Part shown: positions 13,678-34,467 of the stretch, piece by piece
Layout of the letters: each line of letters opens with the position of its first letter
Position numbering within the stretch: position 1 is the first letter of the stretch
Source of the DNA: Streptomyces sp. NRRL S-455
GTDB taxonomy: Bacteria > Actinomycetota > Actinomycetes > Streptomycetales > Streptomycetaceae
Length of the DNA stretch: 64,000 nucleotides
Direction of reading: 5' to 3'
Assembly (NCBI RefSeq): GCF_000717875.1
Contig: NZ_JOCT01000013.1
Span: 248,001 to 312,000, forward strand
Notes under the pieces: model-generated
What the model was told of the DNA's origin: nothing
The model's input: the letters and a program-made list of their open reading frames with translations, nothing else
Database searches by the model: none
Made by a program: the position numbers and the translations under genes

Positions 13678-15987
13678 ATGGATGGCCTCTTGCCCAGGTT
13701 CAGTGTGATTGTCCCCGCGTACCAGGTTCAGGCGTACCTGCACGAGTGCCTCGAGTCGGTGCTCTCCCAGTCCTGTCCCGATCTGGAACTGATCGTCGTG
13801 GACGACTGCTCGCCGGACGCGTGCGGCGCGATCATCGACGAGTTCGCCGCCCGGGACGCGCGGGTCCGGCCCGTCCACCTGCCGCAGAACGTCGGCCTGG
13901 GCCCCGCACGCAACGCCGGCGTGGCGCACGCGAGCGGCGACTACCTGCTGTTCCTGGACGCCGACGACACCTTCACACCTCATGCGCTGCGGTCGATCGC
14001 GGACCGGCTGAAGGAGACGGGCGACCCGGAGGTCCTGGTCTTCGACTACGCGCGCACCTACTGGACGGGCGAGGCGGTCCGCAACCAGGTGGCCCGCCAG
14101 CTCACCGAGCAGGGCCCGGCCCCGTTCCGCCTGGAGGACCGGCCGGGCCTGCTGCGGCTGCTGATGGTCGCCTGGAACAAGGCGTACCGGCGGGAGTTCA
14201 TCGAGGAGAAGGGGTTCGTCTTCCCGCCCGGGTACTACGAGGACACCCCGTGGACGTACCCGGTGCTGATGACCGCGGAGTCGATCGCCACCCTCGACCG
14301 GGTCTGCGTGCACTACCGGCAGCGCCGGCAGGGCAGCATCCTGCGCACCACCAGCGAGCGGCACTTCGACGTCTTCGAGCAGTACGACCGGGTGTTCGCG
14401 CAGCTCGACGAGCGTCCGGAACTGGCCAGGTGGCGGCCGGCTCTCTTCCACCGCATGGTCCACCACCTGGCGATCGTGTACTCCCGCCGGGACCGGCTGC
14501 CGCACGGTTCGCGCGCGGACTTCATGCGCCGGGCCCGCGCCCATTACCGCCGTTACCGCACGCCGGGCGCACCCCTCCCTCCCTCGCTGCCGGCTTCGCT
14601 CGAGCGGGGGAACCCCCACCGCTGCCGGATCCAGCACGTCCTGATCCGCTTCGGCCTGCACCGCACCTACCGCACGCTCCAGCTGGCGTCGGCCCTGCAC
14701 CGCGCCACCGTCCGGGCCGCCGGGGGGCTGCTGCGGGGCCTGAGGTCCGCCGCGCTCAGGTGTCACTACCGCGTGCAGCGCTGTCTCCCGCTGCGCGCCG
14801 ACCGGGCCGTCTTCACCGCCTACGACGGCCGCGGCCACAGCTGCAACCCGGGTGCGCTGGAGTCGGCGTTCCGCGACCTCGCGCCGCACATCCGCACGGC
14901 GTGGATCGCCCGTCCCGAGTACCACCACACGATCCCGCCGGGCACGCGCCGCCTCGTCCCCGGCACGGCCGCCTACTGGGCGGCGCTCGCCCGGTCCGCC
15001 TACCTGGTCAGCAACACCGACTTCGACCACCGCCTGGTCAAGCGCCGGGGCCAGGTACTCATCCAGACCGGGCAGGGCACCCCACTGGGGCACATCGGCC
15101 TCGACCTGCAAGAACGCCCGGCGGCCGCCCGCGGCCGGGACTTCGCCGGGCTCCTCAGGGGCGTCGACCAATGGGACTACGTGCTGTCCGCCAACCGCCA
15201 CACGACCCTCATTCACGAGCGCGTCCACCCGGGCCGCTACACGACTCTGGAATACGGCAACCCCCGCAACGACGTGTTCCGGACGGCGACCGCGGCGGAC
15301 GTGACCCGGCTGCGTGCCTCGCTCGGCATCCCCGAGGGCACGGTGGCGATCCTGTACGCGCCGGCCCACCGCGACTACCGCCGCTCCCAGCGCCGCAGCC
15401 TCGACCTGGAGCGGATCGTGCGCCGCCTGGGCCCCCGCTTCGTCGTGCTGACCCGCTCCCACCACGCCTACGCCGCCCCGCCGGCCGGCACCTGCGGCCG
15501 GGTCCTCGACGTCAGCGACCATCCGAGCGTCCAGTCGCTGTGCCTGGCCTCGGACGCCCTGGTCACGGACTACTCGTCCCTCATGTTCGACTACGCCGGC
15601 CTGGACCGGCCGATCGTGATCCACGCCGATGACTGGGAGGCGTACGAGGCGGCCCGCGGCACCTACTTCGACCTGCGGTCCTTCCCGCCGGGCGCGGTCG
15701 CCCGCGGCGAGGACGAACTGATCGACATCTTCGCCACCGGCCACTGGCGCGGCTCCCGGTCGGCCCAGTTGCGCTCGGCGTTCCGCGAGCGGTTCTGCGC
15801 CTACGACGACGGCCGGGCCGGCGAACGGGTCGTCCGCCGGGTCGTCCTCGGGGAGTCGGACCTGCCGCCGGTCGTACCGCCCGCCGAGCGCCGTCCGGTG
15901 CCGTCGGCGGTGGCGTCCATGGCGCGCGAGCCGCTCGCCACGATTCCGCTGCCGACCGGCACCGCCGTCGTCGCCGACAGCGCATGA
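13678..15987 (+). CDS. GT2-TagF fusion protein 1 (GT2 intact, TagF His replaced)
   Basis: Two-domain wall-polymer enzyme of 769 residues. Residues about 5-260 are a GT2 glycosyltransferase with intact motifs: VVDDCSPD, NVGLGPARNAG, FLDADD (D94-D97) and the YED catalytic-base motif. Residues about 390-750 are a CDP-glycerol glycerophosphotransferase (TagF) domain with YAPAHRDYR, TRSHH and DYSSLMFDYAGLDRP. The TagF motif HGTPLK reads QGTPLG here: the His thought catalytic in TagF is Gln (Q466) and the following Lys is Gly. The linker near residues 298-315 is encoded partly by an interspersed repeat found elsewhere in the window. Start codon is uncertain: ATG 13678 has no good ribosome site, and TTG 13690 would give LPRFSV like its paralogues. 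It begins the polymer locus. Confidence 0.85.
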   Translation: MDGLLPRFSVIVPAYQVQAYLHECLESVLSQSCPDLELIVVDDCSPDACGAIIDEFAARDARVRPVHLPQNVGLGPARNAGVAHASGDYLLFLDADDTFTPHALRSIADRLKETGDPEVLVFDYARTYWTGEAVRNQVARQLTEQGPAPFRLEDRPGLLRLLMVAWNKAYRREFIEEKGFVFPPGYYEDTPWTYPVLMTAESIATLDRVCVHYRQRRQGSILRTTSERHFDVFEQYDRVFAQLDERPELARWRPALFHRMVHHLAIVYSRRDRLPHGSRADFMRRARAHYRRYRTPGAPLPPSLPASLERGNPHRCRIQHVLIRFGLHRTYRTLQLASALHRATVRAAGGLLRGLRSAALRCHYRVQRCLPLRADRAVFTAYDGRGHSCNPGALESAFRDLAPHIRTAWIARPEYHHTIPPGTRRLVPGTAAYWAALARSAYLVSNTDFDHRLVKRRGQVLIQTGQGTPLGHIGLDLQERPAAARGRDFAGLLRGVDQWDYVLSANRHTTLIHERVHPGRYTTLEYGNPRNDVFRTATAADVTRLRASLGIPEGTVAILYAPAHRDYRRSQRRSLDLERIVRRLGPRFVVLTRSHHAYAAPPAGTCGRVLDVSDHPSVQSLCLASDALVTDYSSLMFDYAGLDRPIVIHADDWEAYEAARGTYFDLRSFPPGAVARGEDELIDIFATGHWRGSRSAQLRSAFRERFCAYDDGRAGERVVRRVVLGESDLPPVVPPAERRPVPSAVASMAREPLATIPLPTGTAVVADSA
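14586..14617 (+). repeat. Interspersed GC-rich palindromic element inside a coding region
   Basis: The 25 bases 14586-14610 match the reverse complement of 47881-47905 at 22 of 25 positions; the shared core is CGGCTTCGCTCGAGC. A GGGGG-AA-CCCCC hairpin (14606-14617) follows. It sits in the linker of fusion protein 1, where the paralogues have a shorter linker, so it looks like an in-frame insertion of an intergenic-type element. Confidence 0.65.
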
Positions 15988-16080: not shown

Positions 16081-18282
16081 ATGCCCCGCTTCAGCATCGT
16101 CGTTCCGTCCCATGGGGTGGCCGGCCGGCTGTCCCAGGCGCTGGACTCGATCCTCGGCCAGTCGTTCGGCGACTTCGAGCTGATCCCGGTGTGCGACGCC
16201 CCCGACTCACCCGCGGCGGACGTCGTGGCCGGGTACGCCGAGCGGGACCACCGGGTGACGCCGGTGGACTCCCCGCCGTCGGCCGGCCTGGCCGGGGCGC
16301 GCAACGCCGGGCTGCGGGCGGCGGTCGGCGGCCATGTGCTGTTCCTCGACGGGGACGACGTCCTGGCCCCCGGGGCGCTGGCGGCTCTGGACACCCGGCT
16401 CGGCGACACGGGCGACGTGGACGTCCTGTACTTCGAACACGAACGCACCCCCTGGTGGGAGGGCGAGCCGGCCAACCCGGCCGCGCTTCTCCTGGCCGGG
16501 GCGCCGGACGGGGCCTTCTCACCCGGCCGGGCCCCGCGGCTGACGGGCGTGGCGCTGCCGGCGTGGAGCGCGGCCTACCGCCGTTCCTTCCTCACGGAGC
16601 GGGGCATCACCTTCCCCGGGGACCACTTCACCGACGTCGGGTTCGGCGGGCTGGTGGCCCTGCGGGCGGAGCGGGCGGCGGTCCTGCGCACGGTCGTGGT
16701 CCGGCACCTGCTGCGCCGGCAGGGCAACCGCCTCAACCTCCCGGGCGAGCACCATGCCGAACTCCTCGACCAGACGGAGCTGGTACTGACGCGGGCCGGG
16801 GAGCTCGGGCTGCCGCCGGACCGGCTGACGCCGCTGTTCGAGCAGCTCTTCGCCGCCGTACTGAAGACGGCCGCCCACCCCCGGCGCCTGCCGGCCGGAC
16901 GCCGCGCGTTCTTCCGGCGGGCGAGTGGGCTCTACCGGCGCCACCGCCCCGCCGGCTACCGGCCGCCCGGCGGTAGCCTCGGCGTCCAGCACCGGCTGCT
17001 GGCGGCCGGGTCGTACGCGGCGTTCCGCACGCTGCGCGCCGCCAACCGGAGGGCGGTGCGGGCCGCCGCGCTGCTCCCCCGCCCCCGGGGGCTGCGCACC
17101 CGCCTGTGGTACGCGGCGCAGCTCCGCCGCCCGCTCGACGAGAACCTCGTCGTGTACTGCGCGTACTGGGGCCGCGGCTACGCCTGCAGTCCGGCCGCGA
17201 TCCACGCCAAGGCCCGCGAACTCGCCCCGCACCTGCGCTCGGTGTTCCTGGTGGAGCCGGAGGCGGTGCACAGCATGCCGAAGGACGTGGCGTACGCGGT
17301 GATCGGCAGCCGCACGTACTGGCAGGTGCTGGCCCGCGCCAAGTACCTCGTCAACAACGCCAACTTCGCGGACGCCGTCGTCAAGCGCCCGGGCAGCGTG
17401 CACCTCCAGACCCAGCACGGCACCCCGCTGAAGAAGATGGGGGCCGACCAGGCGACGTACCCGGTGGTGGCGGCGGCGACCGGAAGCATCGGCCGGCTGC
17501 TGGCCCGGGTCGACCGCTGGGACTACAACCTCACCTCCAACCGGCACTCCACCGAGATGTGGGAACGGGCGTTCCCCAGCGCCCACGAGATCCTCGAGTA
17601 CGGCTATCCGCGCAACGACGTGTACTACACCGCCTCCGGCGAGGACGTGGCCCGCGTGCGCAAGGAACTGGGCGTCCCGGAGGGCAAGAAGGCCCTGCTC
17701 TACGCGCCCACGCACCGCGACTACGCCACCGGCTTCTCCTCGGTCCTGGACCTGGCCGAGTTCTGCGAGGCGATCGGCGACGACTACGTGGTGCTGCTGC
17801 GCGCCCACTACTTCTACGACCAGGGGAAGGTCCGGGGCGGCGGCCGGATCATCGACGTCACCGGGCACCGCTCCTCGGAGGACGTGTGTCTGGCCGCGGA
17901 CGCGCTGATCACCGACTACTCGTCGATCATGTTCGACTACGCCAACCTGGACCGGCCGATCGTCGTGTACGCCGACGACTGGGACGTCTACCGGGAGCTC
18001 CGGGGCGTCTACTTCGACCTGATGCGGCTGCCGCCCGGCCGGGTCGCCCGTACGCCCGGGGAGCTGGCGGCCGTCTTCCGCGACGGTACGTACGCGGACG
18101 ACTCCGCCGAGGCCCTGCGCGCCGTGTTCCGGGAGCGCTTCTGCCAGTTCGACGACGGGCGGGCCGCCGAGCGCGTCGTGCGCCGGGTGCTGCTGGGGGA
18201 GCCGCCCGAGTCGATCCCGCCCGTGGTCCCGCTCGCGGAGCGCGTCCCGGCTCCCGCCGCCGTCCCCCTCGTAAGGAGCTGA
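16081..18282 (+). CDS. GT2-TagF fusion protein 2 (TagF intact, GT2 altered)
   Basis: Paralogue of 733 residues with the same GT2 then TagF order. The TagF half is canonical: LQTQHGTPLKKMG (H446), SNRHSTEMW, YGYPRNDVYY, YAPTHRDY, LLRAHYFY and TDYSSIMFDYANLDRP, so glycerol- or polyol-phosphate transfer from a CDP-activated donor is plausible. The GT2 half keeps FLDGDD but has CDA in place of the nucleotide-binding VDD, FTD in place of YED, and WSAAYRR in place of WNKAYRR, so its sugar transfer is doubtful. The start MPRFSIVV aligns with fusion 3. A 94-bp gap with a short direct repeat (gatctccgac, twice) separates it from fusion 1. Confidence 0.86.
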   Translation: MPRFSIVVPSHGVAGRLSQALDSILGQSFGDFELIPVCDAPDSPAADVVAGYAERDHRVTPVDSPPSAGLAGARNAGLRAAVGGHVLFLDGDDVLAPGALAALDTRLGDTGDVDVLYFEHERTPWWEGEPANPAALLLAGAPDGAFSPGRAPRLTGVALPAWSAAYRRSFLTERGITFPGDHFTDVGFGGLVALRAERAAVLRTVVVRHLLRRQGNRLNLPGEHHAELLDQTELVLTRAGELGLPPDRLTPLFEQLFAAVLKTAAHPRRLPAGRRAFFRRASGLYRRHRPAGYRPPGGSLGVQHRLLAAGSYAAFRTLRAANRRAVRAAALLPRPRGLRTRLWYAAQLRRPLDENLVVYCAYWGRGYACSPAAIHAKARELAPHLRSVFLVEPEAVHSMPKDVAYAVIGSRTYWQVLARAKYLVNNANFADAVVKRPGSVHLQTQHGTPLKKMGADQATYPVVAAATGSIGRLLARVDRWDYNLTSNRHSTEMWERAFPSAHEILEYGYPRNDVYYTASGEDVARVRKELGVPEGKKALLYAPTHRDYATGFSSVLDLAEFCEAIGDDYVVLLRAHYFYDQGKVRGGGRIIDVTGHRSSEDVCLAADALITDYSSIMFDYANLDRPIVVYADDWDVYRELRGVYFDLMRLPPGRVARTPGELAAVFRDGTYADDSAEALRAVFRERFCQFDDGRAAERVVRRVLLGEPPESIPPVVPLAERVPAPAAVPLVRS

Positions 18283-18290
18283 CCGAAGAC

Positions 18291-20531
18291 GTGCCCCGCT
18301 TCAGCATCATCGTCCCCGTCTACAAGGTGCAGGGCTTCCTGCGCGAGTGCCTCGACTCGGTGCTCGGCCAGTCGTACGGCGACTTCGAGGTGATCGCCGT
18401 GGACGACCGGTCGCCCGACGGCAGCGGCGCGATCCTCGACGAGTACGCCGCCCGCGACGCCCGGGTGCGGGTGCTGCACCTGCCCGAGAACGTCGGCCTG
18501 GGCCGGGCCCGCAACGCCGGGCTCGATCAGGCGGCCGGCGACTACGTCCTGTTCCTCGACAGCGACGACCACTACACGCCGGGCCTGCTGGCCGCGGTCG
18601 CCGCGCGGCTGGAGACGACCGGCGACCCGGACCTCCTGGTCTTCGACCACGTGCGCACCTACTGGTGGGGCCGGGGCGGGCGCAGTGAGGCGGCGGACCT
18701 GCTGGACGCGGCGGGCCTGGAGACGTTCCGGGTCCGGGAGAACCCCGAGTACCTGAACCTGTTCCTGGTCGCCTGGAACAAGGCCTACCGGCGGGCCTTC
18801 TTCCAGGAGCACGGCCTGAGGTACGCGCCGGGGCTGTACGAGGACGCGCCGGTCACCTACCGGTCGATGGTGCTGGCGGACCGGATCGCCTGCCTGGACC
18901 GGATCGGCGTGGAGTACCGGCAGCGCCGGCAGGGCGCGATCACCAGGACGCCGGGACGCCGGCACTTCGAGATCTTCCCGCAGTACGAGGGGCTGTTCGC
19001 GTTCCTGGAGCAGCGACCCGACCTCGACTGGGCGCGGCCGCTGCTGCTGGAGCGGGCGCTGGACCACATGCTGTTCGTGCTGGCCCGCGAGGACCGGGTG
19101 CGGCCCGCAGACCGGGGCGACTTCTACCGCGAGATCCGTTCCTTCCACCGCCGCCACCTCCCCGAGGGCGGTTTCGAGGAGCCCGGCGGCTGGCGCGGGG
19201 TCGAGATGCGGCTGCTGGCCTCGGCGCCGTACGCGTCGTACGCGGCGGTGCGTGGGCTGCGGGACCTGCGCGCGACCGCCCTGGGCGGGAAGCGGCGGGT
19301 GGTGGGGAAGGTGTCGGAGACGGCACAGCGCACCTGGTACCGGGGCCAGTCGAGGCGTCCCCTCGACCCGCACCTCGCCGTCTACTCCGCGACCCACCAC
19401 GGGGGCGTGTCCGGCGATCCGGCCGCGATCCACGCCAAGGCCCGCGAGATCGCCCCGCACATCCACGGCGTGTGGGTGGTCCGGGAGGACGCCGTGGGCG
19501 CGCTGCCGCCCGGCATCGACCATGTGACACCGGGCTCGCGCCGCTACCACGAGGTCATGGCCCGGGCCACCTACTGGGTGAACAACGTCAACTGGCCGGG
19601 CACCCTGGCCAAGCGGCCCGGCAGCGTGCACATCCACACCCACCAGGGCACGCCGCTCAAGTACATGGGCGCCGACCTGCTGACCAAGCCGGGCGCCCGG
19701 CACGGCTTCGACGTGCCGCAGATGCTGCGCCGGGCCGACCGGTGGGACTACAGCCTGGTCGCCGGGCGGCACGCGGAGCTGGCCTGGGAGCGGGCCTACC
19801 CGTGCCACTTCACCTCGCTGCGCACCGGCAGCCCGCGCAACGATGTGCTGGTGGGCGCCGGTCCGGAGCGCGGCGCGGCGGTACGCGAGCGGCTCGGTGT
19901 CCCGGCCGGTGACACGGTCGTGCTGTACGCGCCGACCCGCCGCGACTACCGGCGCGGCGGCCACGTCGACCGGTTCGACCTGGCCCGGTTCGCGGCCGAC
20001 CTCGGGCCCGGCCACACCCTCGTCGTACGCCTGCACCCCGCGCTGGCCGGGGGTGTGGCGCGCCGCCTCGGGCTGACCGACCTGCACCGGCGGGGCGTGC
20101 TGGTGGACGCGACGGACGAGCCGCACGTGGCGGATCTGATGCTCGCCTCCGACGTACTGGTCACCGACTACTCCGCCCTGATGTTCGACTACGTCCTCCT
20201 CGACCGGCCGGTCGTGGTCCACGCCGACGACTGGGGCGCGTTCGCGGCCAGCCGGGGCGCCTACTTCGACATCACGGCCGACGCGCCGGGGCACGTGTCG
20301 CGTTCCTACCGTGAGCTGACCTGGCTGTTCGCGTCCGGCACGTGGCAGGACGCGGAGGCGGCGCGGCTGCGGGCCGCCTTCCGGGAGCGGTACTGCGAGT
20401 TCGAGGACGGGCAGGCCGCCGAGCGGGTCGTGCGGCTGCTGATGCTGGGCGAGGGCAGTGGTGCGCCGCTGCCCGCGGCCCGCCGGACCCCGGGCGTGCG
20501 TGCCCGGTCCGGAGCGCTGGTCGAGCGATGA
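18291..20531 (+). CDS. GT2-TagF fusion protein 3 (GT2 intact, TagF His replaced)
   Basis: Paralogue of 746 residues. The GT2 domain is fully conserved: AVDDRSPDGSG, NVGLGRARNAG, FLDSDD (D90-D93), WNKAYRR and YEDAP. The TagF domain keeps PRNDV, YAPTRRDYRR, VRLHP and TDYSALMFDY, but the key motif reads HQGTPLKYMG, with Gln (Q452) replacing the proposed catalytic His (CAG for CAC). Start is GTG at 18291, giving MPRFSIIVPVYKVQGF; AAGGAG lies 11 bases upstream and the preceding stop is 8 bases away. The next gene overlaps its stop (ATGA). Cytoplasmic, acting on lipid-linked polymer. Whether the TagF half binds donor without catalysis is not shown. Confidence 0.87.
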   Translation: MPRFSIIVPVYKVQGFLRECLDSVLGQSYGDFEVIAVDDRSPDGSGAILDEYAARDARVRVLHLPENVGLGRARNAGLDQAAGDYVLFLDSDDHYTPGLLAAVAARLETTGDPDLLVFDHVRTYWWGRGGRSEAADLLDAAGLETFRVRENPEYLNLFLVAWNKAYRRAFFQEHGLRYAPGLYEDAPVTYRSMVLADRIACLDRIGVEYRQRRQGAITRTPGRRHFEIFPQYEGLFAFLEQRPDLDWARPLLLERALDHMLFVLAREDRVRPADRGDFYREIRSFHRRHLPEGGFEEPGGWRGVEMRLLASAPYASYAAVRGLRDLRATALGGKRRVVGKVSETAQRTWYRGQSRRPLDPHLAVYSATHHGGVSGDPAAIHAKAREIAPHIHGVWVVREDAVGALPPGIDHVTPGSRRYHEVMARATYWVNNVNWPGTLAKRPGSVHIHTHQGTPLKYMGADLLTKPGARHGFDVPQMLRRADRWDYSLVAGRHAELAWERAYPCHFTSLRTGSPRNDVLVGAGPERGAAVRERLGVPAGDTVVLYAPTRRDYRRGGHVDRFDLARFAADLGPGHTLVVRLHPALAGGVARRLGLTDLHRRGVLVDATDEPHVADLMLASDVLVTDYSALMFDYVLLDRPVVVHADDWGAFAASRGAYFDITADAPGHVSRSYRELTWLFASGTWQDAEAARLRAAFRERYCEFEDGQAAERVVRLLMLGEGSGAPLPAARRTPGVRARSGALVER

Positions 20532-22333
20532 GGACTCCCGCCACCCCCGAGGCCGTACCGTCCCTGCCCGGCCAGCGGGCCTCCTCGGCACCACCGCCGG
20601 CCGCCGTCGAACGGCTGGGGCCGGTGCACTGGTGGCACGCGGCGCTGGTCGCCGTGCCCACCGCGGTGCTGTTGGTGCTGGGCTACCGGCGGCGCTGGAT
20701 CTGCGACGACGGGCTCATCTACCTGCGTCCGGTCCGGCAGATCCTGGCGGGCAACGGGCCCGTGTTCAACGTGGGGGAACGGGCGGAGAGTTCCACCGGC
20801 ACCCTGTGGCAGTGGCTGCTCGCGCTCGGCACCTGGCTGACCGGCGAGGACCCTGCCTTTCTCGCGGTGGGGCTGGGGCTGCTGCTGAGCACCGCCGGAT
20901 TCGGACTCGCCCTGTACGCCACCTGCCGGCTGCACCGGAGCGCGCGGCTGCTGCTGCCGGCGGGCGTGTTCGTGCTGCTGGCCGTGCCGCCGTTCTGGTC
21001 GTACATGACCTCGGGTCTGGAGAGCGGCCTGGGCACCTGCTGGACCGGCCTGTCGTGGTGGCTGCTGACGTGCACCCGGCGCGGCCGGCGGACCCGGGCG
21101 ACGTACACGGCCGCGTTCGTGTTCGGGCTGGGTCCGCTGGTCCGGCCCGATCTCGCGGTGGTCACGGTGTGCTTCCTGGCGGCGCAGTGGTGGGTGCTGC
21201 GCCCGCCCCGGCGGGGCGTCGCCGCGATGCTGGCCTCGGCGGTGGCGCTGCCGCTGGCGTACGAGGTGTTCCGGGCGGGGTACTACGGGGTCCTGGTGCC
21301 GCTGCCCGCCATCGCCAAGGAGGCGAGCGCCAGCGACTGGGGCCGGGGCGCCGGCTATCTGCAGGAGACGTTCGGGCCGTACTGGCTGTGGCCCGTCGTC
21401 CCCGTGCTCGGCGCGCTGGCCGCCGCGCTGGTACGGCGCACACGCACGCGGCGGCGGGCCCGGAATCCGGAACGGGCCTCGCTCGCGGTGCTGCTGGCGC
21501 CGCTGGCCGCGGGCCTGCTGCTGGCCGGGTACGTCGTCCGTGTCGGCGGCGACTACATGCACGCGCGCATGATCCTGCCGGCCCTCCTGCTGCTGCTCCT
21601 GCCGGTCCTGGTGGTCCCCGCGACCAGGTTCACGGGCGTGGCGAGCGCGCTGCTGGTGGTGTGGCTGTGCGCGGCGGTCAGTCCGCTGCGGGAGCCGTTC
21701 GACGTACGCTCCACGCCGACGACCTTCAACGTGCGCAGCTCCGACGTGGAGGGCCTCGGCGACCACAACCCGGTACGCACGGCGACCTGGGTGGACAACT
21801 GGCCGGCGCTGCCGGAGGGGCGCGGCATGCTGGCCCGGGCCGTCGCGGCACCCCGGCCGACGCTGCTGTACTTCGACGCCGGGCGCAGGCTGCACGCCAC
21901 GCCGATGCGGGCGGACTCCCCGTACCACGTGGTGATCGTCGGACGCCATCTCGGGGTCACGGGAGCCGCCGCACCGCTCGACGCCTACGTCAACGACGCC
22001 TGGGGGCTGGCCAGTCCCGTCGGCGCGCACCTGGCGCTGGAGCGGTGGAGCTGGCCCGGGCACGAGAAGTTCCTGCGCAACCACTGGGTCTTCGCGGAGT
22101 GGGCGGCCGAACGCCCGCCCCGGGGCGACCTGCTGCGGGCGGGGACCTCGCGGGAGGCGGTCGAAGCGGCCAGAGCCGCGCTGGACTGCGGTGAGCTGGC
22201 CGAGCTGAAGGAGTCGGTGCGCGCGCCGCTCACCGCCCGGCGGTTCTGGGACAACCTCACGGGCGCCTTCGAGCGGACCGGGTTCCGGTTCGCGCGCTGG
22301 CCGGCCGCGGCCGAGCGGGCGCTGTGCGACTGA
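20528..22333 (+). CDS. AftB-like polytopic GT-C glycosyltransferase
   Basis: Membrane protein of 601 residues with about nine helices. The first outside loop carries paired acids (ICDDGLIYLRPVRQILAGNG) followed by PVFNVGERAESSTGTLW, very like the mycobacterial arabinosyltransferase AftB, a GT-C enzyme that adds the terminal arabinose from a polyprenyl-phosphate donor outside the membrane. A soluble C-terminal part has ADSPYHVVIVGRHLGVTG and DAWGLA. Streptomyces lacks arabinogalactan of the mycobacterial type, so the acceptor is probably the wall glycopolymer made by the neighbours. ATG overlaps the stop of fusion 3, so it is translationally coupled to it. Confidence 0.72.
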   Translation: MRTPATPEAVPSLPGQRASSAPPPAAVERLGPVHWWHAALVAVPTAVLLVLGYRRRWICDDGLIYLRPVRQILAGNGPVFNVGERAESSTGTLWQWLLALGTWLTGEDPAFLAVGLGLLLSTAGFGLALYATCRLHRSARLLLPAGVFVLLAVPPFWSYMTSGLESGLGTCWTGLSWWLLTCTRRGRRTRATYTAAFVFGLGPLVRPDLAVVTVCFLAAQWWVLRPPRRGVAAMLASAVALPLAYEVFRAGYYGVLVPLPAIAKEASASDWGRGAGYLQETFGPYWLWPVVPVLGALAAALVRRTRTRRRARNPERASLAVLLAPLAAGLLLAGYVVRVGGDYMHARMILPALLLLLLPVLVVPATRFTGVASALLVVWLCAAVSPLREPFDVRSTPTTFNVRSSDVEGLGDHNPVRTATWVDNWPALPEGRGMLARAVAAPRPTLLYFDAGRRLHATPMRADSPYHVVIVGRHLGVTGAAAPLDAYVNDAWGLASPVGAHLALERWSWPGHEKFLRNHWVFAEWAAERPPRGDLLRAGTSREAVEAARAALDCGELAELKESVRAPLTARRFWDNLTGAFERTGFRFARWPAAAERALCD

Positions 22334-22335
22334 CG

Positions 22336-22398
22336 GGAGCACGACGTGCTCCTGGCCGTTCCGGGTGAGGTGGCAGGTGGGCGTAGCCGCCTCACCCG
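22336..22398 (+). terminator. Two hairpins after the AftB-like gene
   Basis: GGAGCACGACGTGCTCC (22336-22352) is a 17-bp palindrome 2 bases after the stop. A second hairpin pairs CGGGTGAGG (22362-22370) with CCTCACCCG (22390-22398). Neither has a U-tract; they probably limit read-through into the next gene. Confidence 0.5.
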
Positions 22399-22448
22399 AT
22401 GAAGTGACCCGGGGTCAGGCCTGTGGCAGGGGCGGGAACATTCGGCGC

Positions 22449-24057: not shown

Positions 24058-24068
<11 letters not shown>
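22449..24068 (+). CDS. Polytopic membrane protein, GT-C-like, unassigned
   Basis: About 539 residues with roughly ten membrane helices and a soluble C-terminal part. The first outside loop contains CCDAGQHAAVVERLKAD, where the Asp could be the GT-C catalytic acid, but the motif differs from the two other membrane glycosyltransferases here and I do not recognise a named family. Late segments (GEVVITDGYFASHSIAGYGPN) look like a small periplasmic domain. ATG at 22449 is preceded by GGGA about 11 bases upstream. The 3' end overlaps the convergent ohr gene by 11 bp. A role in moving or transferring sugars for the wall polymer is inferred from position only. Confidence 0.6.
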
Positions 24069-24593: not shown

Positions 24594-25082
24594 ATGAACA
24601 CGCCGGACGACGACTGGCTCCGCCTGGACCAGCAGATCTGTTTCTCCCTGCACGCGGCTTCCCGCGCCTTCAACGGTGTCTACCGGGTGATCCTCAAGGA
24701 CCTCGGGCTCACCTACCCGCAGTACCTGGTGATGCTGGTGCTGTGGGAGCACGACGAGCTGCCCGTGAAGAAGCTCGGGGAGCATCTGCGCCTGGACTCG
24801 GGCACGCTGTCGCCGCTGCTCAAGCGGCTGGAGGCGGCCGGTCTCGTCCGCCGGGAACGCAGCGCCCGCGACGAGCGGTCGGTCGAGGTGCGGCTGACCG
24901 AGGAGGGCATCGCACTGCGGCAGCGGGCCCTTCAGGTGCCGCGCCGGATCGCCGCCTCGACCGGCTTCGGGCCCGACGAGGTCCGGACTCTGCGCGCCCG
25001 CCTCGACGAGCTCACGACCGCACTGGACGCGGCCGCGCTCTCGGAGACTCCGGGCGAATCGCCGGCAGCCGGGCCGTCGTAG
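24594..25082 (+). CDS. ohrR: Peroxide-sensing MarR-family repressor OhrR
   Basis: Winged-helix MarR regulator of about 162 residues. The sensing Cys is at position 16 in [14 protein letters not shown], matching the reactive N-terminal Cys of OhrR, and the family's Tyr residues occur in [21 protein letters not shown]. The DNA-binding part includes [20 protein letters not shown] and the wing [13 protein letters not shown]. It should repress ohr and itself from the intergenic operator. ATG 24594 is preferred; an in-frame ATG at 24567 would add nine residues. The last 71 bp overlap the convergent downstream gene. Confidence 0.93.
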
Positions 25083-26700: not shown

Positions 26701-26791
26701 GCCCAGATTCTGGGAGGTTTCGTAGCCAATACTTGGGCTTGGTGGTGTGTTATCACTTTCATGTCATTCGCCCGGCTTACGATCCGCCGTG

Positions 26792-28510
26792 ATGAATGCC
26801 GTCGTGGATACCGCCGTGGATGCCGCCGTGAACGCCGAGAGGCCGGTCCCCGAGGTCGCCGTCGTGGTCATCGGCTACGACGACGCCGCCCATGTGACGG
26901 ACGCCGTGCGCTCGGCGCTCGCCCAGGGCCCGGCCGTGCGCGAGGTCGTGGCCGTCGACGACTGCTCGACGGACGGCAGCGCCGTCCTGCTCGACCGGCT
27001 CGCGGCGTCGGAGCGGCGCCTGAGGGTCATCCGCCGCCGGGTCAACAGCGGAGGCTGTGGCACCCCGCGCAACACCGGCCTCGCCGCGGTGACGTCGCCG
27101 TACGTGATGTTCCTGGACAGCGACGACGTGCTGCCGCCCGGTGCGGTCGACGCGCTGCTCGCGGCGGCGAGGGGCGCGCACGCGGAGGTGGCGAGCGGCC
27201 TGTGCGTGCGCCGGGAACTGCCGTCGGGACGCGAGGTGCCCTGGCAGGCACGCCTGTACGCACACCACGCCGTGGTCCCGCACCCCGCGCGGCGCCCGGG
27301 CCTGGTCCACGACACGTTGTGCGTCAACAAGCTCTACCGCACCGGCTTCCTGCGCGAGCACGGCATCCGCTTCCCCGAGGGCCGTTTCCCCTACGAGGAC
27401 GTCGTCTTCACCGCACGGGTGCTGGCCGCGGCACCGCGCGTCGCCCTGGTCCCGGACCTGGTGTACGTCTGGCACGTGCGCCGGTCCGCCGAGCGGCTGT
27501 CGATCTCGCTGGACCGGGCCGGTGCCGACAACTGGCGGGCCCGTACGGAGGCGTGCCGGCAGGCGTACGAGGTCCTGCTGGGCGCGGGTCAGAAGGAACT
27601 CGCCCGGGTGGCGCGCGCCAAGTTCCTCGACCACGATCTGCGGATGTACCTGCGCGAACTGGGGTTGCGTGACGTCACGTACCGGCGTGCGTGGTGGGAG
27701 CTCACGCGGGCGCATCTCGCGGAGTACGACGCGGCCGACTGGGCCCGCAACCCGGCCGCTCCGGGCCGGCTGGCCGGGCGGGTCGTCCTGGCCTCCCCGG
27801 AGCCGCGCGACCTGCCCCGGCTGCGGGAACTGGCGGCGCGCCCGGCCCGGCTGTACCCGCCGTACGCCCGCTCCGAGGACGGCACGCCCGTCTGGTCGGC
27901 GGACCTCCCGCAGATCTCCCTGGAGCCCCTGTTGACCCGGCCGGTGGCGGAACTGCCCCTCGCCGTCGACGCGGAACTACGACCACACGCACGCGGAACC
28001 CGGCTGCGGCTGCACCTGCACGAGCTGTACGGACGGCTGGCGCAGGCGGGTCCGAAGGCGGTGGAGGTGGAGTGGCGACACCGGGACGACGAGGACACGA
28101 CGGTCCGCGGCACGGCCGCGCTCGTGTGGTCCGCGGGGCGCACGGGGGCCGCCGGATCCGCGGAATCCACCCAATTCACCGGGCCCGCCGACGACCGCTC
28201 GGCGGAGGCGGCCGGCGGCTGGTCGGCGGAGACGGTCGTGGATCTGGCCGCATTGGCCGCGCTCGGCATGAGCACCTGGGACCTGCGCCTTCGCATCCTG
28301 TTCCGGGAGGGCGTGAGCCGCGAGGTCACAGCGCACGCCCTCACGGGCGCCGGTCTGCTGCGCCGCGGAGCCGTCCCGAGCGCCCGGCACGGTCTGGTGC
28401 TCGTACAGCCGTACGCCACCCACTCCGGCGCGCTGGCGCTGCGCGTGGCGCCCGGTGTACGCGGTGCGCTGTCCGTCGTACGCGGAAGGCTTCGCCGCCT
28501 GGTTCACTGA
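26792..28510 (+). CDS. GT2 glycosyltransferase, TarS-like, 1
   Basis: About 572 residues. The N-terminal GT2 domain has AVDDCSTDGS, NSGGCGTPRNTGL, FLDSDD and the catalytic-base motif FPYEDVVF. The middle helical linker (FLDHDLRMYLRELGLRD) and the beta-rich C-terminal part resemble TarS/TarP, which glycosylate wall teichoic acid polymers on the cytoplasmic side, with the C-terminal part assisting oligomerisation or polymer binding. A probable role is decorating the polymer made by the TagF-type enzymes before TagGH export. Start is uncertain: ATG 26792 fits the alignment of the GT2 N-terminus but has a weak ribosome site. It is followed by galE after 62 bp. Confidence 0.75.
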   Translation: MNAVVDTAVDAAVNAERPVPEVAVVVIGYDDAAHVTDAVRSALAQGPAVREVVAVDDCSTDGSAVLLDRLAASERRLRVIRRRVNSGGCGTPRNTGLAAVTSPYVMFLDSDDVLPPGAVDALLAAARGAHAEVASGLCVRRELPSGREVPWQARLYAHHAVVPHPARRPGLVHDTLCVNKLYRTGFLREHGIRFPEGRFPYEDVVFTARVLAAAPRVALVPDLVYVWHVRRSAERLSISLDRAGADNWRARTEACRQAYEVLLGAGQKELARVARAKFLDHDLRMYLRELGLRDVTYRRAWWELTRAHLAEYDAADWARNPAAPGRLAGRVVLASPEPRDLPRLRELAARPARLYPPYARSEDGTPVWSADLPQISLEPLLTRPVAELPLAVDAELRPHARGTRLRLHLHELYGRLAQAGPKAVEVEWRHRDDEDTTVRGTAALVWSAGRTGAAGSAESTQFTGPADDRSAEAAGGWSAETVVDLAALAALGMSTWDLRLRILFREGVSREVTAHALTGAGLLRRGAVPSARHGLVLVQPYATHSGALALRVAPGVRGALSVVRGRLRRLVH

Positions 28511-28572
28511 GGACCAGCACAGCACGACCACGCGACACCGGCACGGGTCGACTGACGAGGGGACGGCCGCAC

Positions 28573-29553
28573 ATGACCTGGTTGATCACCGGCGGCGCCG
28601 GCTACATCGGGGCGCACGTCGTACGGGCGATGACCGCGGCGGGGGAACGGGCGGTGGTGTACGACGACCTGTCCACCGGTATCGCCGAGCGCGTGCCCGC
28701 CGGTGTGCCCCTGGTGGTGGGCTCGACGCTGGACGGCGAGCGGCTGGCGCGCGTCCTCGCCGAGCACTCGGTCACCGGCGTCGTCCACCTCGCGGCGAAG
28801 AAGCAGGTGGGAGAGTCGGTCGAGCAGCCGCTGCGCTACTACCGGGAGAACGTCGAGGGCCTGCGGACCCTGCTGGACGCCGTGACGGCGGCGAAGGTGC
28901 CGTCCTTCGTCTTCTCCTCCTCGGCGGCGGTGTACGGCATGCCGGACGTGGACCTGGTCACGGAGGAGACGCCGTGCCTGCCGATGTCCCCGTACGGCGA
29001 GACGAAGCTGGCCGGTGAGTGGCTGGTGCGCGCGACGGGACGGGCGACCGGGCTGTCGACCGCGTCCCTGCGCTACTTCAACGTGGCCGGCGCCGCGAGT
29101 CCGGAACTCGCGGACACCGGTGTGTTCAACCTCGTCCCCATGGTCTTCGAGAAGCTCACGCAGGACGCGCCGCCGCGCGTCTTCGGCGACGACTACCCGA
29201 CCCAGGACGGCACCTGCGTACGCGACTACATCCACGTCGTGGACCTGGCCGAGGCCCATGTCGCGGCGGCCCGTGTTCTGCGCTCCTCCCCGGGCCGCGA
29301 CCTCACCCTCAACATCGGCCGGGGCACCGGTGTGTCCGTCCGCGAGATGATCGACCGCATCAACGCGGTCACCGGCTACGACCGGCCACCGACGGTGGCC
29401 CCCCGCCGCCCGGGCGACCCCGCCCGTGTCGTCGCCTCCGCCGACCGCGCCGCCGCCGAACTGGGCTGGAAGGCCCGGCTCGACGTCCAGGACATGATCA
29501 CGTCGGCGTGGGAGGGCTGGGTGCGACTCCATCCGGAGGCCGCGCGGAGCTGA
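28573..29553 (+). CDS. galE: UDP-glucose 4-epimerase GalE
   Basis: Short-chain dehydrogenase/reductase of 326 residues that interconverts UDP-glucose and UDP-galactose (or the N-acetyl forms) using tightly bound NAD. It has the NAD motif GGAGYIG, the Ser-Ser-Ser segment SSSAAVYG, catalytic YGETK, and the GalE-type FNVAGA and DGTCVRDYIHVVDLA. GAGGGG precedes the ATG. Placed between wall-polymer glycosyltransferases, it probably supplies galactose-type donors for polymer synthesis rather than for the Leloir pathway. Streptomyces often has a second galE elsewhere. Confidence 0.92.
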   Translation: MTWLITGGAGYIGAHVVRAMTAAGERAVVYDDLSTGIAERVPAGVPLVVGSTLDGERLARVLAEHSVTGVVHLAAKKQVGESVEQPLRYYRENVEGLRTLLDAVTAAKVPSFVFSSSAAVYGMPDVDLVTEETPCLPMSPYGETKLAGEWLVRATGRATGLSTASLRYFNVAGAASPELADTGVFNLVPMVFEKLTQDAPPRVFGDDYPTQDGTCVRDYIHVVDLAEAHVAAARVLRSSPGRDLTLNIGRGTGVSVREMIDRINAVTGYDRPPTVAPRRPGDPARVVASADRAAAELGWKARLDVQDMITSAWEGWVRLHPEAARS

Positions 29554-30223: not shown

Positions 30224-30243
30224 GCCGACAGCATAGGGCGTCA

Positions 30244-30415: not shown

Positions 30416-31342
30416 GTGAGCCAGGTCCTCGACACACCGCCCCACACCCCGGCCCCGGTCCCGGTCCCGGCCGACGACGACCTCGCGGCCCTGGCCGCCC
30501 GCCACGGCCTCTCCGTCAGCGGCGCCCGCCCCTCCCTGCCCGAGTACGTCCGGCAGTTGTGGGCCCGCCGTCACTTCATCACCGCGTTCGCCACCGCCAA
30601 GCTCACCGCCCAGTACAGCCAGGCGAAGCTCGGCCAGCTCTGGCAGGTGATGACCCCGCTGCTGAACGCGGCGGTCTACTACTTCATCTTCGGCGTGCTG
30701 CTCGGCACCAAGCACGGCGTGCCGGACTATGTCCCGTTCCTGGTCACGGGCGTGTTCATCTGGACCTTCACACAGAGCTCGATCATGGCGGGCACCCGCG
30801 CCATCTCCGGCAACCTGGGTCTGGTGCGCGCCCTGCACTTCCCGCGCGCCGCGCTGCCCCTGTCGTTCTGCCTCCAGCAGCTCCAGCAACTGCTGTTCTC
30901 GATGGCCGCCCTGGTCGTCATCCTGCTCTGCTTCGGCGTACCGGTCGGGGTGTCGTGGCTGCTGGCGCTGCCGGCACTGTTCCTGCAGTTCACCTTCAAC
31001 GCGGGCGTCTCCATGGTCATGGCCCGGATGGGCGCCAAGACCCCCGACATCGCCCAGCTGATGCCGTTCGTGCTGCGCACGTGGATGTACGTCTCGGGCG
31101 TCATGTGGAGCATCGACAAGCTGGCGGACAAGGACAGCCTGCCGCGCGTCGTGACGGTCCTGCTGGAGACCAATCCGGCCGCGATCTACATCGACCTGAT
31201 GCGCTTCGCCCTGATCGACAGCTTCCAGGCGAGCCAGCTCCCCGCCCACGTGTGGGCGATCGCCGTCGGCTGGGCACTGCTCGCCGGTGTCGGCGGCTTC
31301 ATCTACTTCTGGAAGGCTGAGGAGACGTACGGCCGTGGCTGA
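30416..31342 (+). CDS. tagG: ABC-2 type polymer exporter permease, TagG-like
   Basis: Permease of 308 residues with six membrane helices in ABC-2 style and a cytoplasmic N-terminal amphipathic segment (LPEYVRQLWARRHFI). The segment YSQAKLGQLWQVMTPLLNAAVYY is typical of teichoic-acid and O-antigen exporters. With the overlapping ATPase gene it should flip lipid-linked wall polymer to the outside. The start is GTG at 30416. Context of TagF-like and TarS-like enzymes supports wall teichoic acid-type polymer as substrate. Confidence 0.87.
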   Translation: MSQVLDTPPHTPAPVPVPADDDLAALAARHGLSVSGARPSLPEYVRQLWARRHFITAFATAKLTAQYSQAKLGQLWQVMTPLLNAAVYYFIFGVLLGTKHGVPDYVPFLVTGVFIWTFTQSSIMAGTRAISGNLGLVRALHFPRAALPLSFCLQQLQQLLFSMAALVVILLCFGVPVGVSWLLALPALFLQFTFNAGVSMVMARMGAKTPDIAQLMPFVLRTWMYVSGVMWSIDKLADKDSLPRVVTVLLETNPAAIYIDLMRFALIDSFQASQLPAHVWAIAVGWALLAGVGGFIYFWKAEETYGRG

Positions 31343-32159
31343 GCACCCGAGCGAGAAGATCCCCACCGTCGTCGCCGACGGCGTCGACATCGTCTACCGC
31401 GTCAACGGCACCGGCGGCGGACGCGGCTCCGCGACCGCCGCCCTCAACCGCATGCTGCGCCGCAAGCAGACCGAGAAGGCGGCGGGCGTACGCCGGGTGC
31501 ACGCCGTGAAGAACGTGTCGTTCGTCGCGTACAAGGGCGAGGCGATCGGCCTGATCGGCACCAACGGTTCCGGCAAGTCGACCCTGCTGAAGGCCGTCGC
31601 CGGGCTGCTCCCCGTCGAGAACGGCCGCATCCACACCGACGGCCAGCCCTCCCTGCTCGGCGTCAACGCGGCCCTGATGAACGACCTGACCGGCGAGCGC
31701 AACGTGTACCTCGGCGGCCTCGCCATGGGCATGTCCCGGGAGCAGATCAGGGACCGCTACCAGGAGATCGTCGACTTCTCGGGCATCAACGAGAAGGGCG
31801 ACTTCATCACGCTGCCCATGCGCACGTACTCCTCCGGCATGGCCGCCCGGCTGCGGTTCTCCATCGCCGCCGCCAAGGACCACGACGTGCTGCTGATCGA
31901 CGAGGCGCTGGCCACCGGCGACCGCTCCTTCCAGAAGCGCTCCGAGGAACGCATCCGCGAGCTGCGCAAGCACGCGGGCACGGTGTTCCTGGTCAGCCAC
32001 AACAACAAGTCGATCCGCGACACCTGCGACCGTGTGCTGTGGCTGGAGCGCGGCGAGCTGCTCATGGACGGGCCGACGGAGGAGGTCCTGAAGGAGTACG
32101 AGGCGTTCACCGGGGACAAGTCCGCGAAGCCCAAGCCCAAGGCCGCTGTTCCCTCGTGA
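31335..32159 (+). CDS. tagH: ABC polymer exporter ATPase, TagH-like
   Basis: ATPase subunit of 274 residues. Walker A is GTNGSGKST, the signature YSSGMAARLRF and Walker B DVLLIDEALATGD, followed by the H-loop LVSHN. SSGM in place of the usual LSGGQ is normal for teichoic acid and polysaccharide exporters of the TagH/Wzt group. There is no extra C-terminal carbohydrate-binding domain. GTG at 31335 overlaps the tagG stop by 8 bp, so the two are coupled. The stop codon lies inside a short tandem duplication. Confidence 0.9.
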   Translation: MAEHPSEKIPTVVADGVDIVYRVNGTGGGRGSATAALNRMLRRKQTEKAAGVRRVHAVKNVSFVAYKGEAIGLIGTNGSGKSTLLKAVAGLLPVENGRIHTDGQPSLLGVNAALMNDLTGERNVYLGGLAMGMSREQIRDRYQEIVDFSGINEKGDFITLPMRTYSSGMAARLRFSIAAAKDHDVLLIDEALATGDRSFQKRSEERIRELRKHAGTVFLVSHNNKSIRDTCDRVLWLERGELLMDGPTEEVLKEYEAFTGDKSAKPKPKAAVPS

Positions 32160-32262: not shown

Positions 32263-34467
32263 ATGGCCGAGCTCAGCGTCATCCTGCACGGGCCGAACGT
32301 CCAGGACCATCTGACGGAACTCCTCGATTCCCTCGCCGCACACCCGCTGCCGGACGCCGAGCTGATCGTGGCCGCGGTGGGCGACTGGGCCCGGGAGACG
32401 GCCGAGCGGCACACCCCGGACGTCCCCGGCCTGCGGGTCCTGCCGCTGCCTGACGGCACGGGCGACGCGGCGGCCCGGGCGGCGGGCGCGGCACGGGCTT
32501 CCGGACGCTGGCTGCACTTCGTCCACGCCAAGGACGGCCTGCCCGCCGGAGCCCTCCGCACGGTCGCCGAGCGGGTGGCCGAGCTCTCCGGTGAGGTGGA
32601 CGTCCTGCTCCTCGACCACGTCCGCAGCACCTGGCGCGCCTCCGGCCTGCCCTCCCCGGACGGTTCCCTGCTCGCCCGGGCGGGCCGCGCCGACGTCCCC
32701 CTGGACGACTTCGCACCCCTGCTGCGTCTCACCCCGCTGCTCGGCACCCGCGTCCTGCGCGCGGACTTCTGGCGGGCGCACCAACAGCGGCTCACCACCG
32801 AGGACGAGCCGTACGCCGCCCTGGCCGCTCTGCTGCTCGCCGATCGCGTCGCCTGCCTTCCGCACGTCGCCTACGAGGACCGCAGGCTGCGCCCGGCGAG
32901 TCTGCCCCCGGTCACGCCCGAGCAGCGCTACGGCGTCGTCGAGCGCTACGAGTCCCTCTTCGATCTCGCCCGGGACCGCCGCGCCACCCACGCCGTGCTC
33001 TACGACGTGATGGTCCACGACTTCCTGCGCACCTTCGCGCGCGGCGGCATGACGGAGGAGGTCGCGCGGGAGTTCTTCCGCCGGGCGTCCCTGGCCGCCC
33101 TGCGCCGCCGCCCCGAGGGCTACCGGCGCCCCGCCGGTCTCGACGGGGTCCGCCGCTCCCTGCTCGAAGAGGGCGCCTACGCCAAGTACCGGGCCTTCCA
33201 GGCGGTCAACCGCACCCGCCGCACGGCCCAGTCGGCCGTACGGGCCCGGCGGCGCCAGGCCGGCGCCAGGCTCCGCGACCACCAGTACCGCAGGGCCCTC
33301 GGCCGCCCGGTCGATCCCGGCCTGGCGGTGTTCTCGGCGTACTGGAACCGCGGCGTCACCTGCAACCCCGCCGCGATCGCCGCGAAGCTCGGCGAACTCG
33401 CCCCGCGGATTCACCAGGTGTGGGTGGTCACCGCGGAGAACGCGGCCCTCCTCCCGCCCGGCACCGACCACGTCGTGCCCGGCACCCGCCGCTACTGGGA
33501 GGTGCTGGCCAGGGCCAAGTACCTCGTCAACAACGTCAACTTTCCCAACGCGGTGGTCAAACGCCCCGGCGCGATCCACGTCCAGACCCACCACGGCACG
33601 CCCCTGAAGCGCATGGGTCTGGACCAGATGGCGTACCCGGCGGCGGCCCAGGGCATGGACTTCCAGGCGCTGCTGGAACGCGTCGACAAGTGGGACTTCA
33701 GCGTCTCCGCCAACAGCCACACCACCCGCATGTGGCAGCGCGCGTACCCCTCGCACTACATCAGCCTCGACCACGGTTACCCGCGCAACGACGTCTACTA
33801 CACGGCCGGCGCCGAGGACATCCGCGCGATCCGCGACCGGCTCGGCATCGCGCCGGGCCGCCGGGCGGTCCTCTACGCGCCGACCCACCGCGACTACGAG
33901 GCCGGCTGGACCCCGCGCCTGGACCTCGCCGCCCTAGCGGACCGCCTGGGCGACGGCACGGTCCTCCTCGTCCGCGGCCACTACTTCTACGGCGGCGCCG
34001 CCTCTCCCCTCACCAACCTGCGCCGCACGGGCCGGATCATCGACGTCTCCTCCTACGACCCGGTCGAGGAGCTGTGCCTGGCGGCGGACGCCCTGGTCAC
34101 GGACTACTCCTCGATCATGTTCGACTACGCCAACCTCGACCGGCCGATCGTGATCCACGCCGACGACTGGGAGACGTACCGCACCACCCGCGGCGTCTAC
34201 TTCGACCTCATGGCCGAGGCCCCGGGCCCGGTGGCCCGCAGCCAGCAGGAGCTGACGGAGATCCTCACCACCGAGGCCTGGCACGACGAGGGCGCGGCGA
34301 AGGCCCGGGCCGTCTTCCGGCGCCGGTTCTGCGAGTACGACGACGGACGCGCCGCCGAGCGCGTCGTCCGCCGGGTCTTCCTCGGCCAGGACGAGCGGGA
34401 CCTGCCGCCGGTGCTGCCCATCGAGGAGCGCACCCCGGCCCCACCGCCGGAGGAGGCGACGGCATGA
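32263..34467 (+). CDS. tagF: GT2-TagF fusion protein 4 (TagF intact, GT2 degenerate)
   Basis: Protein of 734 residues. The C-terminal TagF domain is canonical: VQTHHGTPLKRMG (H444), ANSHTTRMWQRA, HGYPRNDVYY, YAPTHRDYE, VRGHYFY and TDYSSIMFDYANLDRP. It should transfer polyol phosphate from a CDP donor to the growing polymer. The N-terminal GT2-like domain has lost its hallmarks: the VDD position reads AAVGD and the DXD position HAKD (H88-D91); an ED pair near the usual catalytic base remains. AAGGAG lies 8 bases before ATG 32263. By position this should correspond to the S. coelicolor TagF homologue SCO2997, which I recall being linked to sporulation. The next gene overlaps its stop (ATGA). 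Confidence 0.86.
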   Translation: MAELSVILHGPNVQDHLTELLDSLAAHPLPDAELIVAAVGDWARETAERHTPDVPGLRVLPLPDGTGDAAARAAGAARASGRWLHFVHAKDGLPAGALRTVAERVAELSGEVDVLLLDHVRSTWRASGLPSPDGSLLARAGRADVPLDDFAPLLRLTPLLGTRVLRADFWRAHQQRLTTEDEPYAALAALLLADRVACLPHVAYEDRRLRPASLPPVTPEQRYGVVERYESLFDLARDRRATHAVLYDVMVHDFLRTFARGGMTEEVAREFFRRASLAALRRRPEGYRRPAGLDGVRRSLLEEGAYAKYRAFQAVNRTRRTAQSAVRARRRQAGARLRDHQYRRALGRPVDPGLAVFSAYWNRGVTCNPAAIAAKLGELAPRIHQVWVVTAENAALLPPGTDHVVPGTRRYWEVLARAKYLVNNVNFPNAVVKRPGAIHVQTHHGTPLKRMGLDQMAYPAAAQGMDFQALLERVDKWDFSVSANSHTTRMWQRAYPSHYISLDHGYPRNDVYYTAGAEDIRAIRDRLGIAPGRRAVLYAPTHRDYEAGWTPRLDLAALADRLGDGTVLLVRGHYFYGGAASPLTNLRRTGRIIDVSSYDPVEELCLAADALVTDYSSIMFDYANLDRPIVIHADDWETYRTTRGVYFDLMAEAPGPVARSQQELTEILTTEAWHDEGAAKARAVFRRRFCEYDDGRAAERVVRRVFLGQDERDLPPVLPIEERTPAPPPEEATA

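Follow-up and report, generated by a model that had tools for sequence, protein, structure and literature searches.

Complementary half-dead polymerases have precedents in the laboratory and in eukaryotes. Cps1B of Actinobacillus pleuropneumoniae carries a GT-A and a TagF-like domain in one chain, with catalytic residues corresponding to those discussed below; mutants in single domains complement each other in trans, and two half-dead copies regain full activity (PMC5974469). The heparan sulfate polymerase EXT1-EXT2 is a complex of two homologous two-domain polymerases with one inactive pseudo-domain (PMC9675754). Little is understood of the enzymes that make wall glycopolymers in Streptomyces. 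Here, we analyze four genes encoding GT2-TagF fusion proteins, designated F1 to F4, in a stretch of 64,000 nucleotides from Streptomyces sp. NRRL S-455 (RefSeq assembly GCF_000717875.1, contig NZ_JOCT01000013.1, positions 248,001 to 312,000), hereafter called the window. In each protein, Pfam places a GT2 domain at the N terminus and a TagF domain at the C terminus, and a profile search of the whole 8.2-Mb genome returned four PF04464 matches, exactly F1 to F4. In the adjacent genes F2 and F3, opposite domains have lost catalytic residues; comparison of orthologues indicates that these losses are fixed, co-inherited and more than decay, and a division of labor between the two proteins is well supported by sequence. 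An enzyme that formerly did two jobs in one chain may thus have turned into a two-protein machine.

Motif states of the four fusions

All four proteins match Glyphos_transf (PF04464) with 379 to 442 bits (cut-off 22.1), and their coordinates, reading frames and motif residues are as the initial annotation gave them. The first catalytic His (TagF H444) is present in F2 and F4 (HGTPLK; H446 and H444, respectively) and absent from F1 (QGTPLG, Q466) and F3 (QGTPLK, Q452). The second catalytic His, in an R-x-H motif, is found in all four (RSH in F1, RAH in F2, RLH in F3 and RGH in F4). PDB alignment with mutants of Staphylococcus epidermidis TagF agrees with the position originally proposed for the catalytic His: the residue that is Asn in the H444N chains 3l7j, 3l7k and 3l7l aligns with F2 H446 and F1 Q466, and the His mutated to Ala in 3l7m aligns with R-x-H. 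Judged by these motifs, F1 and F3 are PF04464 members by fold and should not be filed as active transferases. In the alignment, the N-terminal part of the S. epidermidis protein also resembles GT2, so the GT2-TagF fusion is not peculiar to this genome.

The GT2 domains (PF00535; inverting, GT-A type) scored 131 bits in F1, 127 in F3, 64 in F2 and 25 in F4. The DXD and ED motifs and the other invariant residues are complete in F1 and F3; F2 has DXD and the D of ED without the E; F4 lacks the set, its DXD aspartates being lost too. The Glu and Asp of YED in F3 align with E177 and D178 of TarS (residue numbers counted on this alignment), an enzyme in which the substitutions R75A, D91A, D93A, D94A, E177A and H210A abolished activity and D178N cut it severely (PMC5156392). 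F2 lacks the glutamate (TarS E177), N167 and other invariant residues; the Asp of FTD (TarS D178) is present, as is DXD. Because TarS E177A abolishes activity, the E-to-T change of F2 probably inactivates its GT2 domain, although DXD and the base Asp stay. The damage initially ascribed to the F2 head is thus real for the glutamate and other residues but only partial. No fusion of the window has both active sites intact, as a Cps1B-type enzyme does. In AlphaFold models of single F3 and F4 chains, the GT2 heads have the predicted GT-A fold, including the dead head of F4, and the damaged domain of each protein is predicted to be folded. TarS, TarP and RmlT, enzymes that decorate teichoic acid, are among the closest structural matches of the heads, in a match list that does not exclude families missing from it.

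Orthologues of F2, F3 and F4

Orthologues of F2 were sought in the named Streptomyces collection with search patterns that included stretches beside the catalytic residues, not on them. The best 80 of 203 candidate loci and the window gave 81 copies, among which near relatives are over-represented. F3 lies directly 3' of F2 in 80/80 named loci, with a gap of 1 to 9 nt in each (start codons positioned by aligning the proteins with that of the window). F2 has HGTP and has lost the GT2 glutamate in 81/81 copies, and it retains DXD in 81/81 and the base Asp in 80/81. Conversely, F3 keeps DXD and YED in 81/81 (VDD in 76, VND in 5) and has lost the first His in 81/81, the replacing residue being Gln in 75, Arg in 3, Leu in 2 and Glu in 1; R-x-H persists in 79/81 (77 RLH, 2 RMH). 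The consistent loss expected of Streptomyces orthologues was therefore observed for F2 and F3, as well as for F4 (120/120), but not for F1, which has the His in 27/77 copies; for F1, the random loss that the initial annotation named as refuting its reading was thus in part observed. Chance is excluded for F2, F3 and F4, since their states are fixed in this survey. F2 at 59% identity or more was found in 62 of 199 Streptomyces genomes drawn, and the F3 matches at E <= 1e-150 in 147 genomes drawn from the order (five genera) all came from one genus.

Losses were also counted against a reference of 38 intact fusions, in which 128 columns are invariant at 95%. The invariant columns lost in the majority of copies numbered 0 in F3, 1 in F1, 9 in F2 and 19 in F4 for GT2 (of 36) and 11 in F3, 5 in F2, 4 in F1 and 0 in F4 for TagF (of 89).

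The GT2 head of F3 is of two types, A (the window type, 40/81) and B (41/81). Mean identity between the types is 63% for the GT2 heads and 76% for the inactive TagF domains. An intact stand-alone fusion (L149) has a head that shares 75% identity with head A, and the F3 TagF domain is at most 53% like any reference TagF domain. F3 was named before trees were built; the A/B split and the stand-alone pairing were first seen in this identity comparison. In quick trees of 34 rows, a single F3 clade was rejected for GT2 (log-likelihood difference 126, approximately unbiased test p = 1.4e-42), and the TagF tree recovered F3 as one clade with full support, the grouping of A with the stand-alone fusions being rejected (log-likelihood difference 253, p = 4.5e-39). 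Because the GT2 and TagF trees conflict on F3, these phylogenies indicate that two GT2 heads of different origin were exchanged on its inactive TagF domain and that the domain stayed. A tentative proposal, possible rather than probable, is that this domain is a dedicated docking scaffold under selection on which heads of at least two types, different in origin, are swapped, enabling the F2-F3 machine to change its sugar and not its polymerase. If true, the wall-polymer synthase would be modular, with two subunits, a pseudo-enzyme as chassis and glycosyl heads that can be exchanged, which could account for the fast change of Streptomyces surface glycans recognized by phages and toxins. If sugar heads change while the inactive domain stays fixed, the diversification of surface polymers could be approached directly through this exchange.

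For F4, 120 close orthologues including the window copy were compared; these are hardly independent because they are 89 to 100% identical. All 120 have the His and HAKD instead of DXD. A wider draw (29 copies, window included) had the His in 29/29, with DXD lost in 28/28 readable copies. One-sided GT2 loss is fixed in F4 as judged from these sequences. The window protein is nearest to F4 of Streptomyces species, with S. coeruleorubidus and S. afghaniensis as examples. A swap of the F4 head had been considered for four genomes in which the match to the window F4 started at about residues 236 to 241, and was rejected: these orthologues (L312 to L315) have the usual dead head and an insertion near residue 235, between the head and the TagF domain.

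Fusion 1, intact relatives and a second split

F1 was found in 76/80 named loci (one copy, L078, is a fragment). Among the 77 cluster copies, including that of the window, the GT2 domain is conserved (YED in 75/77) and the TagF His is replaced by Q (16), A (13), R (12), T (3), E (2), D (2), G (1) or P (1). A tree of 149 F1 copies requires at least 11 changes at this position, and loss in F1 appears recurrent and unfinished. This count left out the fragment, copies less than 58% identical to the window F1 (L225, L226, L247, L254, L277, L294 and others), L190, which shares its genome with L280, and L240, which is truncated by its locus. F2 partners were labeled by hand, with L229, whose F2 lacks the His, labeled as having no partner. 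The F1 His was lost in 53/84 copies with a His-bearing F2 versus 15/65 without (Fisher p = 1.2e-6; the genomes are related). GT2 damage was rarer with F2 (1/84 versus 10/65), and 44 of the 65 solo orthologues have both motif sets intact. The two-plus-two division of labor put forward in the initial annotation is not supported in that form, as F1 is no consistent His-less partner, 27/77 cluster copies and 50/65 copies without a His-bearing F2 keeping the His. A phylogenetic test of whether an F2 partner accompanies F1 His loss had no power, with just 6 independent pairs available on supported branches among these related genomes (median p = 1).

The idea that F1 keeps its His only without F4 was rejected, in a comparison that excludes L081, L096 and L098. 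Where F4 was not found, genomes carry both F1 with HGTPLK (for example, L060, L067, L069, L075, L084, L091, L099, L103 and L104) and F1 with the His lost (for example, L053, L056, L062, L064, L065, L066, L070, L071, L094 and L095), and HGTPLK also occurs in F1 where F4 is present (L048, L052, L063, L100, L107 and L112). Six solo F1 (L276, L281 to L283, L299 and L300) keep the TagF His and have a damaged ED motif, a loss opposite to that of the window F1.

Among other fusions, 34/35 keep both motif sets, the exception (L182) having a degraded GT2 domain, and four solo F1 orthologues in the same comparison keep all motifs. Five loci from later draws (L232, L249, L266, L267 and L272) contain an intact F1 beside a fusion with degraded GT2 and intact His, which by its motifs is a further lineage of GT2-dead partners. 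In a 92-row tree, F1, F2, F3 and F4 each form one side of a branch, the groups having first been set by identity thresholds and afterwards recovered as clades. F1 lies with the intact solo F1s, and F2 and F4 lie with a different intact clade. Since each fusion is one branch side among mostly intact relatives, an intact bifunctional ancestor is the simplest reading, and since the placements differ, F1, F3 and the F2/F4 side would have lost function separately. Of the single ancestral fusion initially proposed, the intact ancestor is retained, but the four proteins do not stem from one recent duplication.

The median ratio of TagF to GT2 distances was 1.00 in intact fusions, 1.20 in solo F1 (4 rows, 6 pairs), 1.34 in F1, 0.75 in F2, 0.52 in F4 and 1.03 in F3. 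By this measure, the damaged domain evolves clearly faster in F2 and F4 and perhaps in F1. In F1, F2 and F3, respectively, median ratios of nonsynonymous to synonymous substitution rates (Nei-Gojobori, 400 pairs, 75 loci) were 0.43, 0.37 and 0.35 for the damaged domain and 0.29, 0.31 and 0.46 for the intact one, values that are relative only, given a strong bias in GC content at third codon positions (GC3). By these values, the three damaged domains do not evolve as free pseudogenes would.

A second split was found among F1 orthologues without F2. A clade of six has lost both His (the first replaced by R or E; the second motif being RAP), and the clade that encloses it comprises 17 copies, the other 11 being intact F1. 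A further TagF gene lies about 10 kb away in these genomes. A TagF-only partner open reading frame (ORF) of 405 to 419 residues with HGTPLK accompanies 5/5 doubly His-less F1 versus 0/11 sisters, a count covering five members since the sixth (L274) lies on a short contig. In the 11 sisters, the partner has 680 to 746 residues, HGTPLK and a weak GT2 remnant of 53 to 134 bits (intact F1 heads, about 380). These comparisons indicate that the second split is one evolutionary event, independent of F2/F3, with the same sugar versus polyol-phosphate outcome. The state of the sisters suggests that the partner lost GT2 first and that F1 lost TagF function later.

The gene cluster, its possible product and known systems

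The four fusions and the neighboring genes are listed in Table 1. F1 to F3 adjacent with F4 further along is, in gene order only, the arrangement of SCO2981-SCO2983 and SCO2997, which are listed for S. coelicolor among the genes of wall teichoic acid glycosyltransferases in a report whose excerpts describe no motif analysis or division of labor (PMC3937824). Judged on this arrangement, F4 would be the counterpart of the TagF homologue SCO2997. Two multi-pass membrane proteins are encoded in the cluster, that of Table 1 and one at 22365-24068, for which no Pfam or NCBIfam family was matched. On the minus strand, 25012-26700 is a long ORF with coding-like GC3 and about 8 hydrophobic segments.

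Table 1. Fusion genes and neighboring features, numbered from the first nucleotide of the window
Feature	Positions	Strand	Remarks
F1 (769 aa)	13678..15987	+	GT2 stretch 13702-14205, TagF domain 14764-15846; GT2 intact, Gln at catalytic His
F1 Q466 codon	15073..15075	+	aligns to TagF H444
F2 (733 aa)	16081..18282	+	GT2 partly degraded (VCD, FTD; DXD present); TagF domain 17110-18192 intact
F2 H446 codon	17416..17418	+	catalytic His present
F2 stop to F3 GTG start, 8-nt gap	18283..18290	+	read from sequence
F3 (746 aa)	18291..20531	+	type A GT2 head 18303-18812, fully conserved; TagF domain 19338-20444 without first catalytic His
F3 Q452 codon	19644..19646	+	aligns to TagF H444
Membrane protein	20342..22333	+	partial arabinofuranosyltransferase match (NF041481, 277.5 bits, cut-off 1050); start provisional; overlaps F3 end
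GT2 glycosyltransferase without TagF domain	26747..28510	+	family match
UDP-glucose 4-epimerase GalE	28573..29553	+	above NCBIfam cut-off; within ORF 27691-29553, start provisional
Polysaccharide/teichoic acid ABC exporter, two genes	30416..32159	+	Wzm-like permease, TagH/Wzt-like ATPase; all under model cut-offs
F4 (734 aa)	32263..34467	+	dead GT2 (HAKD), TagF domain 33286-34380 intact
F4 H444 codon	33592..33594	+	catalytic His present
GT2 glycosyltransferase immediately 3' of F4	34470..36110	+	family match; start provisional

The evidence on the donor, expected at the outset to be CDP-glycerol, is divided: no TagD match above the cut-off is present in the genome (best 35.9 versus 165.4 bits) and a ribitol-5-phosphate cytidylyltransferase fused to a short-chain dehydrogenase/reductase domain is encoded elsewhere (L309, contig C11, 468914-469606), but the Pro of HGTP predicts glycerol phosphate by a published rule (PMC10299916). 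The fused protein is likely a CDP-ribitol synthase. The genome has three CTP_transf_like matches. UDP-Gal is a plausible sugar donor, because GalE is encoded in the cluster. Since the nearest structural matches of the heads include TarS, TarP and RmlT, decoration with side chains is no less likely than the alternating polymer first envisaged.

We think it fairly probable that, as a whole, the locus is a teichoic-acid-type wall-polymer synthesis cluster with split sugar- and polyol-phosphate-transferase fusions. The TagF domain of F2 would transfer polyol phosphate and the GT2 head of F3 would transfer sugar, the inactive domain of each being kept as a folded, conserved scaffold that may dock the partner or hold the growing chain. 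F2 and F3 would each contribute one half of a Cps1B-type polymerase and act jointly, perhaps in a hetero-complex as the initial annotation proposed. F4 would be a second TagF-active, GT2-dead polyol-phosphate transferase, and F1 a sugar transferase whose TagF activity, dispensable where partners supply it, was lost repeatedly. The product may be exported via the adjacent TagGH-like ATP-binding cassette (ABC) transporter. If this is right, a bifunctional polymerase has turned, in nature, into a two-protein system, and the annotation "bifunctional" is wrong for F1 to F4 of this cluster. The steps of the split are testable because intact, half-split and fully split forms occur in one genus.

Several observations weigh against this division of labor. 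F1 breaks the symmetry by keeping its His in part of the cluster copies, and the link between its loss and an F2 partner rests on related genomes. One F2 (L229, QGTPLT) lacks the His, and the neighboring F1 has HGTPLK. F3 gives no rate signal, its ratio being obscured by head exchange, and the ratio of solo F1 is already near that of F1. The GT2 domain of F2 may be slow or altered, not dead, because DXD and the base Asp persist. In three genomes (G028, G079, which is 78% complete, and G091), the sole PF04464 match is a doubly damaged F1 (L247, L286 and L291), reflecting either pathway decay or another function; the function is therefore not needed everywhere. Such genomes would be expected from relaxed decay, in which unneeded domains of redundant paralogues rot randomly and, without any cooperation, each protein works alone as a sugar or a polyol-phosphate transferase on separate substrates, as would the eight different residues that replace the F1 His and the ten F1 without a His-bearing F2 that have GT2 damage, four of them also His-less. 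We nevertheless regard decay as unlikely overall, because the F2 and F3 states and the adjacency of their genes are fixed, the damaged domains are constrained and, in F3 and F4, predicted to be folded, and F3 retained its inactive TagF domain while heads were exchanged.

It is highly doubtful that all four proteins are still bifunctional, with Gln replacing His in F3 and an altered donor site in the GT2 domain of F2. Conserved substitutions can signal altered function, and the persistence of R-x-H and Gln in most F3 copies and of DXD in every F2 copy could be understood in this way. However, His-to-Ala mutants of Cps1B and Cps7D gave no polymer (PMC5974469), and the PDB titles of TagF H444N with CDP-glycerol and TarL H300N with CDP-ribitol fit a donor-bound inactive state. 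C389, Y528 and, in most copies, S634 (F1 numbering) are likewise missing from F3, and four different residues replace its His. Outside the 81 copies, two diverged F2 (L177 and L228) retain almost none of the GT2 motif residues, and a third (L240) is a TagF-only ORF of 436 residues without the whole GT2 domain. The possibility that the sugar is a side branch, F2 and F4 building a polyol phosphate chain that F1 and F3 decorate as TarS, TarP and RmlT do, comes close to an even chance and is compatible with a division of labor. In Cps1B, which has the same GT-A/TagF-like architecture, both domains are reported to elongate a glycosyl/polyol- or hexose-phosphate polymer (PMC5974469), which argues against a side branch.

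Division of labor between F2 and F3 can be set against described systems. The TagF-like transition transferase Cps7A is similar in that its presence, not its activity, is required for long chains after the primer has formed, its mutants showing that a TagF-like protein can have a role even when inactive (PMC11666461); Cps7A is itself an active transferase, whereas the TagF domain of F3 lacks the His in every copy compared. Compared with S. epidermidis TagF (3l7i to 3l7m), F1 and F3 lack the first His, and F2 and F4 have degraded GT2 heads. A natural, reciprocal and inherited bacterial case with exchangeable heads was not described in the literature searched, most subscription journals lying outside it. 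In EXT1-EXT2, one of four domains is reported as inactive, whereas the losses in F2 and F3 are reciprocal, and the protein families of the two systems are unrelated. Cps1B is a single protein that performs both tasks and was divided only experimentally; the split in F2 and F3 is natural, inherited and located in adjacent genes of a Gram-positive bacterium.

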